Positions 691-9,500 of a stretch of 45,879 nucleotides of DNA are shown here, in pieces (the stretch's first letter is position 1; each line of letters begins with the position of its first letter). The stretch lies in assembly GCF_900176035.1 (NCBI RefSeq), contig NZ_FWWT01000018.1:1-45879 (forward strand), in the 5' to 3' direction. The stretch is from Desulfonispora thiosulfatigenes DSM 11270. GTDB taxonomy: Bacteria; Bacillota; Peptococcia; Peptococcales; Desulfonisporaceae. A model generated the notes under the pieces. The model saw only the letters and a list, made by a program, of their open reading frames with translations, searched no databases and was not told the DNA's origin. A program made the position numbers and the translations under genes.

Positions 691-719
691 TTGACAGAAG
701 AAAATATAATTGGTAGTCT
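691..719 (+). promoter_or_regulatory. possible promoter of the riboswitch-sigma factor unit
   Basis: A perfect TTGACA lies at 691-696. At the 17-bp spacing there is only TAGTCT (714-719), a weak -10. A perfect TATAAT at 705-710 is too close to the -35 to pair with it. A promoter must lie between the rRNA terminator and the riboswitch at about 738, but the exact elements are uncertain. Confidence 0.3.
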
Positions 720-737
720 CAAGTAAGAATAGAATAA

Positions 738-820
738 AAGGGCAAAACTAACGAAAGTTAGTGACGCAAAGCTATGGGTCTAAATCTATATTTAAAGATA
801 TGATTGCCAGGTTGCCATGA
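738..820 (+). promoter_or_regulatory. cyclic di-GMP class I (GEMM-I) riboswitch aptamer
   Basis: The aptamer has the class I c-di-GMP landmarks in order: AGGGCAAA (P1 5' side), a P2 stem ACTAA capped by the CGAAAG tetraloop, the conserved GACGCAAAGC core, the GGGTCTAA receptor part of P3, and the closing CCAGGTTGCC. GTTGCC at 811-816 can pair with GGGCAA at 740-745 (P1, ligand-bound) or with GGCAAC at 858-863 (the 5' arm of the downstream terminator). This predicts that ligand frees the terminator arm, so c-di-GMP should turn the sigma factor gene off. Aptamer identity is firm; the direction of control is inferred from this pairing switch. Confidence 0.9.
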
Positions 821-854
821 TAAAGATTATATTTTTATCCTAGTGAAAAATATA

Positions 855-881
855 AAAGGCAACTAAATGTTGCCTTTTTTT
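855..881 (+). terminator. riboswitch-controlled terminator
   Basis: GGCAAC (858-863) and GTTGCC (869-874) form a short hairpin followed by seven T. It lies between the c-di-GMP aptamer and the sigma factor gene, and its 5' arm competes for the aptamer's GTTGCC. It is therefore the likely expression platform. Confidence 0.85.
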
Positions 882-917
882 ATTTTTCACTATCAAAACT
901 TTAAAGGAGTAAATATC

Positions 918-1565
918 ATGAAGTATTCAGAATGTATTAATCTTTCGGAAGAAGAACTCATTTATTTAGCTAAAAGTAATAATAAAAATGCTGAAGAAAT
1001 CTTAATCGAAAAGTATATGAAAATATTATATTGGATAAGTCAGAATTATTATGCTAAAGGAGCCGATAAAGATGACATATTACAAATTGCATTAATCTCC
1101 TTTCATAAGTCTATTTCTTGTTATAAAAATATTGAAAATTCACTATCATTTAAAAACTTTGCAGCTCTATGTGTAAGGAGAGAGTTAATTAGTTTTTTAA
1201 AACACACTAATAGCTTGAAAAATGAGTTTTTAAATAATGCAATACCTGTTTACTCCTCTGCCCCTACTTTTAAGGAAAATGATGAAAATCAATGTTCATC
1301 TTATTTTGTAAATACAATGCTTAAAGATTCATCACCTAACCCTGAAGAGATGCTTATTGATAATGAATTACAAGAATACATAAAAGAAGAAATCGATAAT
1401 AAGCTTTCTGAATTAGAAAAAAAGGTATTAATTTTAAAATTAAAGGGATATTCCTATAAAGAAATATCTATACTAATAGATAGAAATGAAAAGGCAATTG
1501 ATAATAGTATTCAAAGAATTAGGAAAAAATTAAAGAATCTATGGATAGAATTAAAAGTAGGTTAA
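918..1565 (+). CDS. SigH-like RNA polymerase sigma-70 family factor
   Basis: A 215-residue sigma factor. The N-terminal region (about residues 10-75, EELIYLAKSNNKNAEEILIE, then GADKDDILQIALISFHKSI) matches sigma region 2. The C-terminal part (about 160-210, LSELEKKVLILKLKGYSYKEI) is a region 4 helix-turn-helix. Overall arrangement and length are closest to the sporulation factor SigH, which controls stationary-phase and early sporulation genes, but sequence drift suggests a paralogue rather than the main SigH. The start at 918 is chosen because AAAGGAG lies 8-10 nt upstream; an upstream ATG at 867 falls inside the terminator hairpin and has no binding site. The gene is the first after the c-di-GMP riboswitch, so its expression should respond to c-di-GMP. 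The 87-residue gene at 1592 follows. Confidence 0.85.
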   Translation: MKYSECINLSEEELIYLAKSNNKNAEEILIEKYMKILYWISQNYYAKGADKDDILQIALISFHKSISCYKNIENSLSFKNFAALCVRRELISFLKHTNSLKNEFLNNAIPVYSSAPTFKENDENQCSSYFVNTMLKDSSPNPEEMLIDNELQEYIKEEIDNKLSELEKKVLILKLKGYSYKEISILIDRNEKAIDNSIQRIRKKLKNLWIELKVG

Positions 1566-6532: not shown

Positions 6533-9500
6533 ATGGCTGAGGTAATTAAAATGAAAAATAATAAACAGGGTTCTGTTATGGTTGTAGGTGCAGGTATTGC
6601 TGGAATTCAATCATCGCTAGATCTAGCAGAAATGGGTTATAAGGTTTATTTAGTGGAAAAAAGTCCAGCTATTGGTGGAACAATGCCTGCCTTAGATAAA
6701 ACTTTTCCAACTAATGACTGTTCTATGTGTATTCTTTCGCCAAAACTAGTGGAGTGCGGTCGTCATCTTAATATTGAAATATTAACTAATAGTGAGGTAG
6801 AAGAGGTCTCTGGAGAAGTAGGAAACTTTAAAGTAAAAGTAAAAAAAGAACCTCGTTTTATAGATACAGATAAATGTACTGGTTGCGGAGATTGTGCAAC
6901 GGCATGTCCAGTTGAAATTAATAATGAATTTGAGAAAAACTTAAGTAAATCAAAAGCTACTTATAAAAAATACGCACAAGCATTTCCTAATGCATTTGCA
7001 ATTATGAAAGATGGAACAGCTCCATGTAAGGGTACTTGTCCAGCGAATGTAAATGCTCAAGGCTATATTGCCTTAACTAAAGCAGGTAAACTAAAAGAAG
7101 CAGCATCAATTGTTTACGATGATTTATTAATGCCTGGTGCTTTAGGGAGAATTTGTCCTCATCCTTGTGAAAATGAGTGCAGTAGAGCACAAGCTGAAAG
7201 TGCATTATCTATTGCAGGAATTAAAAGATTTTTAGCTGATAATCACAAGCGTCCGGCTCTAAATATATCAGAATTTAAAGATGAAAAGATTGCCATTATT
7301 GGTGCAGGTCCAGCAGGTCTTACCTGTGCATTTGAATTATTAAAGAAGGGCTATAAAAGTACAGTTTTTGAAGCCTTACCAGTTGCAGGTGGAATGTTAG
7401 CAGTAGGAATACCTGATTATCGCTTACCGCGAGAAACCTTAGATAAGGAAATTAGTTTCTTAACTGAAAATGGGGTAGAAATTAAATATAATACTAAATT
7501 AGGCCAAGACATTACTGTAGAAGGACTAAAAGCAGAAGGATATAAGGCAGTATTTATTGCAACAGGTGCTCATAAAAATAGACCTTTAGATATTGCTGGA
7601 GAAGAATTTGTTTTATCAGGAGTAGATTTTTTAAGAAAAGTTAACCTAGGTGAAAAGGTAGGATTAGGTAAAAAGGTTGGTATCGTAGGTGGTGGAGACG
7701 TTGCGATGGACGCAGCAAGAAGTGCTCTACGCTTAGGTGCGCAGGAAGTTACTATTTATTATCGCCGTTCAAGAGCGGAATTACCAGCAAGATTAGAAGA
7801 AATAGAAGGCGCGGAAGATGAAGGAATTAAGTTTAAATATTTAGCAGCGCCAATAATAGCGGTCGAAGAACAAGGTAAACTTCAAGGAGCAGTATTTGTT
7901 GAAATGGAGTTAGGACAGCCAGATGAATCTGGAAGAAGAAGACCAGTGATGAAACCAGATTCAGAGTATTATGAAAAGCTGGATACAATTATTGCTGCTG
8001 TTGGTCAAAAGGCAAGTATAGATGGTTTACCAGAAGAATTAGAATTAACTAGTTGGAAAACAGTAATCGGTGATGAAATAACTCTTGCCACTTCTTTAGA
8101 TGGTGTATTTGTGGGTGGTGAAGTAAGAACGGGTTCTGGTATTGCCATTGAAGCAATTAACGAGGGTAAAAAGGCATCTGAATCTATCATCCGTTATATA
8201 AAAGAAAAAGATTTAGCAGAGGGTAGAGATGAAAAACCAAAAGTAGCGGCTAAACCACCTGTAGATAAAGATTTAGTAAGGCTAGAAAGAGTAAACCATA
8301 ATGAATTACCAGTTGATGAGAGAATTACAAACTTTGAAGAGGTAGCCCTACCTTTTAGTGAAGAAGATATTTTAAGAGAATCGAATCGCTGTATGGATTG
8401 TGGACCTTGTTCAGAATGTATGGAATGTGTGAAAGTTTGTAAAGCAGAATGTATAGATCATACTCAAAAAAGAGAATATATAGATCTTAACGTAGGTGCA
8501 GTTCTATTAGAACCAGGATTTACAGAATTCCCAGCTGAAGATATTAGTAGTTATGGCTTTGGAAGATATAAAAATGTAGTAACAAGTGCTCAGTTTGAGC
8601 GTATCCTTAGTGCTTCAGGTCCTTTTGGTGGACATTTAATCAGACCATCTGATCATAAGGAACCAAAACGTATTGCTTGGATTCAATGTGTAGGATCAAG
8701 AAATGAAAGAGAAAATAAAAGTTATTGTTCAGGCGTATGTTGCATGTATGCAATCAAAGAAGCAGTTATTGCAAAAGAGCATAGTGAAGATCCACTAGAT
8801 ACAAGTATTTTCTATATGGATATGCGTACCCATGGTAAAGATTTTGAAAAATATTATGAAAGAGCAAAAAAACAAGGTGTTAACTTTATTCGTTCAAGAA
8901 TTTATGAAGTTGATGAAAAAGAAGACGGAAGTATGGTAATCCGTTATGCTACTGATGATGGTAGATTAATGGTAGAAGAATATGATTTAGTTGTTTTATC
9001 AGTTGGTTTATGTGCACCAACGGGTTCAGAACAAATTATGAATGTTATGCAAATAGAAAATAACAAATATGGTTTTGCTAATACCCCAGTATTAGAGCCA
9101 ATTAAAACTTCTAGAGATGGAATATTCGTTGCAGGGGCATTTAGTGGTCCTAAAGATATTCCAGAAACAGTAACACAAGCCAGTGCAGCAGCTATTGAAG
9201 CCGCTAAGTCATTAATGGAAGTTAAAAATACTTTAGTTAAAGAAAAGGTTTATCCAGAAGAAATAGATGTAATAGGTCAAAAAGCACGTATAGGTGTATT
9301 TATTTGTCATTGTGGAATCAATATATCTAGCGTTGTTAATATTAAAGAAGTTGTTGAATATGTAAAAGATTTAGAAAATGTAGTTTTCATAACTGATAAC
9401 ATGTATACCTGCTCTCAAGATAGTCAGTTAAAAATGAAAGAAATTATTGAAGAGCATAATTTAAATAGAGTAGTAGTTGCTTCTTGTAGTCCAAGAACTC

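Follow-up and report, generated by a model that had tools for sequence, protein, structure and literature searches.

The arrangement of a riboswitch in front of a sigma factor gene raises the question of whether the level of a second messenger can be passed directly to the control of a set of genes without a protein receptor. Such an arrangement is found in the window, the whole stretch of 45,879 nucleotides of Desulfonispora thiosulfatigenes DSM 11270 that was analysed, where a class I c-di-GMP riboswitch stands before the gene of a SigH-like sigma factor (Table 1). The riboswitch probably controls this protein, a lineage-divergent second SigH-like sigma factor, through premature transcription termination. 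Because the sigma gene is the first in its own unit, the link between messenger and regulon is potentially clean and testable.

Table 1. Features of the riboswitch-sigma locus and related loci of the survey
Feature	Position or loci	Strand	Basis or detail
Probable promoter	691..719	+	TTGACA (691-696), 17-nt spacer, extended TGg-TAGTCT (711-719); read from sequence
Class I c-di-GMP (GEMM-I) riboswitch aptamer	731..819	+	Rfam RF01051
Antiterminator, 810-816 GGTTGCC with 858-864 GGCAACT	810..864	+	Folding
Intrinsic terminator, AAAAGGCAAC-TAAAT-GTTGCCTTTT and U-rich tail	854..878	+	Terminator scan, folding
SigH-like sigma-70 factor (not SigH), 215 aa	918..1565	+	Pfam, NCBIfam
Small protein, 87 aa	1592..1855	+	No Pfam or NCBIfam family
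Two-ORF sigma-like loci with class I aptamer	L041, L059, L253-L255, L257, L261, L263-L267, L269, L271		

The class I aptamer of the original prediction is borne out by an RF01051 match over the full model length, at 80.5 bits (gathering score 35) and an E-value of 2.2e-14. A base check of the window aptamer also found G742, A769, and C815 at the positions expected to contact the ligand, which we take to be the equivalents of G20, A47, and C92 in Vc2. By homology to Vc2, C815 is presumably a ligand contact, and C816 part of the P1 pairing. At position 20 of Vc2, A20 marks binders of cyclic AMP-GMP and G20 marks the c-di-GMP type, thus cyclic AMP-GMP specificity (GEMM-Ib) is ruled out by G742. 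The aptamer itself is ordinary and of the textbook type, and it is expected to bind c-di-GMP.

Downstream of the aptamer, the terminator stem comprises ten pairs (854-863/869-878), and the region has four terminator-like sites, where shuffled sequences have 0.4 +/- 0.7. A further inverted repeat, TAGTGAAAAATA/TATTTTTCACTA, flanks the terminator (842-892) and provides a stem of more than 20 pairs after readthrough. The motif GTTGCC occurs both at 811, in the 3′ end of the aptamer, and at 869, in the 3′ arm of the terminator, with GGCAAC located at 858. Pairing of 810-816 with 858-864 is mutually exclusive with both the folded aptamer and the terminator. GTTGCC had been predicted to pair either with its own 5′ side or with the terminator arm; the competition for the terminator arm holds through GGCAAC at 858, but the pairing with its own 5′ side does not, as 810-813 close P3 in the Rfam structure and only minimum-energy folds without ligand show TTGCC paired with a 5′ GGCAA.

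Folding with ViennaRNA places the antiterminator as the minimum-energy state for RNA ends 862-872. In energies that omit the ligand and tertiary contacts, the antiterminator reaches -29.7 kcal/mol at RNA end 868, against -19.6 kcal/mol when the native aptamer forms without ligand, while at RNA end 884 it is nearly balanced with the terminator (-36.2 vs. -37.1 kcal/mol). Since the antiterminator and the terminator lie near balance without ligand, ligand binding should tip the RNA to termination, turning the gene off. At low c-di-GMP, the unfolded aptamer would pair through its 3′ end (810-816) with the 5′ arm of the terminator (858-864), which lets the polymerase continue into the sigma gene. 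At high c-di-GMP, the bound aptamer would keep 810-816 for itself, and the 854-878 hairpin would form and stop transcription before the gene. A rise in c-di-GMP would thereby lower the expression of the entire sigma regulon. The predicted transcription-terminator platform with a ligand-OFF mode is therefore supported by the exclusive pairings and by folding. The leader draws no support from covariation or conservation, as relatives in the class do not have the switch and the host is the sole genome of its family compared.

The opposite polarity, in which c-di-GMP blocks termination and turns the sigma gene on, is unlikely. Class I switches occur in both polarities, and another switch in the same genome, before a chemotaxis receptor gene on contig C13, has the ON layout. 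In addition, the terminator is present in the ligand-free, full-length minimum-energy fold of the window RNA. However, the 3′ strand of the window aptamer matches the 3′ arm of the terminator and pairs with its 5′ arm. An aptamer that holds its 3′ strand therefore frees the terminator, which argues against an ON switch and for the OFF switch.

Transcription of the leader would start at the probable promoter just upstream of the aptamer. This assignment is tentative, with a weak -10 element and an alternative -10, TATAAT, at 705-710; the promoter was missed by the consensus scan, as its -10 matches at just three of six positions. Immediately upstream of the riboswitch lies an rRNA operon with its own terminator at 625-652, and this operon and an FprA-like gene are the neighbours of the sigma gene in the window. 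It is highly improbable that the sigma factor is expressed mainly from elsewhere, either from its own promoter past the terminator or by readthrough from the rRNA operon, leaving the riboswitch a minor role. The rRNA operon is directly adjacent and, since the region is AT-rich, promoter-like strings are common in the scan, yet the terminator stem is separated from ATG 918 by only ~40 nt, a gap in which the consensus scan found no convincing promoter. This agrees with the original prediction, which relied on the absence of an independent promoter between the terminator and the sigma start. The weak promoter-like matches of the scan at 804-833 and 812-841 would give starts inside the leader that still run into the terminator, and readthrough beyond the rRNA terminator must cross the aptamer and the terminator of the riboswitch anyway.

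The gene behind the riboswitch encodes both domains of a sigma-70 factor, with PF04542 (Sigma70_r2) at 30.2 bits (cut-off 24) and PF08281 (Sigma70_r4_2) at 37.9 bits (cut-off 25.7), and among solved structures the closest is 3MZY, a sigma-H factor of RNA polymerase. The ribosome-binding site AAAGGAG is located shortly 5′ of ATG 918, while the in-frame ATG further upstream, at position 867 within the terminator, is an unlikely start. Codon usage in the sigma frame resembles that of the neighbouring genes, with the other two frames far worse. The GC content of 25% is the lowest of the 29 long ORFs in the window, and third-position GC is normal.

Of the SigH type that had been assigned to this gene, the sigma-70 domains and the likeness to SigH are confirmed, but it is not SigH itself. 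NCBIfam SigH models score the window protein at 112-140 bits, all below their cut-offs of 208-414, and the SigH equivalog test with TIGR02859 and NF006148 failed (127 bits vs. cut-offs of 295 and 208). The canonical SigH is encoded at C10:1651, where it reaches 383 and 415 bits on the SigH models, and the window sigma factor is only 33% identical to it. Genes resembling rlmB, yacP, thyX, and cysS adjoin the gene at C10:1651; the rlmB-yacP-sigH neighbourhood is absent at the window locus and is located there instead. SigH identity is thus ruled out. A mobile or viral origin was likewise rejected, as no relative was found in viral contigs and plasmids gave only distant SigH-like matches.

The protein was compared with the SigH-like proteins of 46 genomes of the class, including the host, the sole genome of its family in the set. 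SigH-like genes are present in 41 of these genomes, which mostly have two, SigH itself and a paralogue. This second gene is found in several of them between cysK and two paired genes whose sequences look like those of nucleoside-recognition (spore-maturation-type) proteins, and in several it lies just downstream of 5S rRNA or tRNA genes. The best matches of the window sigma factor belong to this second, cysK-linked group, with up to 42% identity. Its gene has no cysK neighbour and follows an rRNA operon as several members of the group do. In the tree, the branch that joins SigH to the second group bears the window protein, whose own branch is ~15 times the median length. The window sigma factor is thus probably, though not firmly, a long-branch relative of the class's second SigH-like sigma factor. 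Class I aptamers exist in 24 of the 46 genomes, but a comparison of coordinates found none near a SigH-like gene in the other 45, and Rfam searches of the second-sigma loci of relatives found no class I aptamer. The riboswitch before this sigma gene thus looks lineage-specific, as far as these data go.

The long branch also bears on whether the switch, though working, acts on a decaying gene, a degenerate paralogue with no regulon. Besides the branch length, an unusual amino-acid composition, the low GC content, the lowest Sigma70_r2 score among the 13 sigma genes of the genome, and the loss of conserved residues in region 2.2, where QEAxIGL of the family reads QIALISF, point in this direction, but the intact 215-aa frame with its good ribosome site, the normal codon usage and third-position GC, and the conserved region 4 leave little probability for decay. 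Given the lost region 2.2 residues and the very long branch, it is not certain that the protein is active; as a functional sigma factor, it would be expected to direct its own regulon. Competence, sporulation, or motility, suggested at first as the output, is a speculative assignment.

The original prediction also placed a small gene behind the sigma gene, and an ORF of that kind is present, though not as part of a conserved module. A promoter-like TTAAAA-17-TATAAT at 1551-1579, just before the small gene, may serve it, and the scan places a terminator-like site at 1854-1893; the gene is possibly co-transcribed with the sigma gene. Its homologues, which 12 further genomes of the order carry at 55-64% identity, are lone genes in differing surroundings (L241-L252). 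Since they stand alone in relatives, an operon module of the sigma gene and the small gene is unsupported. The family consists of proteins of ~86 aa with a start like MQHTSHTQVIFADSAEEAKEKYLALGIKPDHD and occurs in 13 of the 46 class genomes.

The host genome (2.41 Mb, 31 contigs) contains Spo0A, 16 GGDEF domains, and 13 Sigma70_r2 genes including that of the window. By inspection, its sigma set resembles SigA, SigE, SigF, SigG, an N-terminal SigK fragment, a FliA-type factor, several ECF factors, and a SigI-like factor, with SigH identified by models. The host is likely an anaerobe that sporulates, probably has flagella, and actively signals through c-di-GMP. The SigK-like gene (G000:C22:405119, L215) encodes only ~149 aa of the N-terminal part, which may reflect a disrupted gene or the insertion of a skin-type element. 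The genome also has three other class I aptamers, two of them preceding chemotaxis receptors. One is the C13 switch, located before the gene of a methyl-accepting chemotaxis protein on the minus strand (L028, ~8670-8831; G000:C13:137747). Here, the aptamer 3′ strand is itself the 5′ arm of the terminator, the opposite of the layout in the window. High c-di-GMP may therefore raise the receptor and lower the sigma factor, as predicted from the two opposite layouts.

The survey of class I switches upstream of sigma genes that had been suggested yielded further cases. It examined which genes follow 142 class I sites, drawn from the class and from a biased phylum sample of the best ~150 sites, with 20 of 162 sites left unparsed by the motif. 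On inspection, many targets resemble chemotaxis, surface, pilus, and flagellar genes. Besides the window gene, sigma-like first genes comprise a SigG-like gene (L147), two-ORF operons (L041, L059, L132), and a Sigma70_r4_2 protein (L194), and Pfam confirms the sigma domains in these genes. At L147 (1-1050; G211:C61:7042), an aptamer of the RF03167 subtype of class I is followed ~240 nt downstream by the SigG-like gene, with a terminator-like hairpin between them; the aptamer may or may not control sigG.

The two-ORF family usually pairs an HTH_16 ORF of ~84 aa with a downstream Sigma70_r4 ORF of ~130-160 aa, and some loci then carry a small membrane-protein, Amidase_3, or serine-recombinase-like gene. 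The family presumably resembles split sigma factors such as SigO/RsoA. With its region-4 half as query, matches were obtained in 18 of 398 genomes, and a class I aptamer was detected at 12 of the 20 loci fetched, no more than ~0.9 kb upstream on the same strand. Together with L041 and L059, this amounts to 14 loci in 13 genomes from 10 Bacillota families. A literature search, mostly outside subscription papers, found no paper on this pattern of sigma-like targets. The recurrence of class I switches before sigma-like genes, in at least ten Bacillota families, raises the question of how far c-di-GMP acts through RNA-controlled sigma factors. It is possible, though we advance it only tentatively, that an anaerobic Bacillota lineage captured a class I OFF switch before a dedicated sigma gene and so brought an entire sigma regulon directly under c-di-GMP, as one case of a wider, unrecognised pattern in Bacillota that includes the two-ORF operons and sigG.

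Among known systems, SigH (Spo0H) of Bacillota is the best-matching sigma family for the window protein, but its neighbourhood differs. The cysK-linked second sigma factors share with the window gene a place just downstream of 5S rRNA or tRNA genes in several members, whereas they have no riboswitch in front, have a cysK neighbour, and are far less divergent. In the two-ORF operons, too, a sigma-like gene comes directly after a class I c-di-GMP switch, although their sigma family is unrelated and usually split over two ORFs. The closest precedent is found in Clostridioides difficile, where the class I riboswitch Cd1 (Cdi-1-3) turns off the flgB operon, including sigD, and thereby lowers the SigD regulon (PMC6366702, PMC8653836). 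Class I switches of C. difficile acted as OFF switches when tested (PMC6200980). A sigma factor as target of this riboswitch class is thus not unprecedented given sigD under Cd1 and the other sigma-like targets of the survey, and the general idea of a c-di-GMP riboswitch acting on a sigma regulon is already established by C. difficile. Like the window switch, Cd1 combines a class I aptamer with OFF control by c-di-GMP that lowers a sigma factor and its regulon. However, sigD encodes a FliA-type factor and lies deep inside a flagellar operon, whereas the window sigma gene is SigH-like and comes first in a unit without flagellar genes; a dedicated SigH-like sigma factor as the first gene appears to be a new target for a class I switch.
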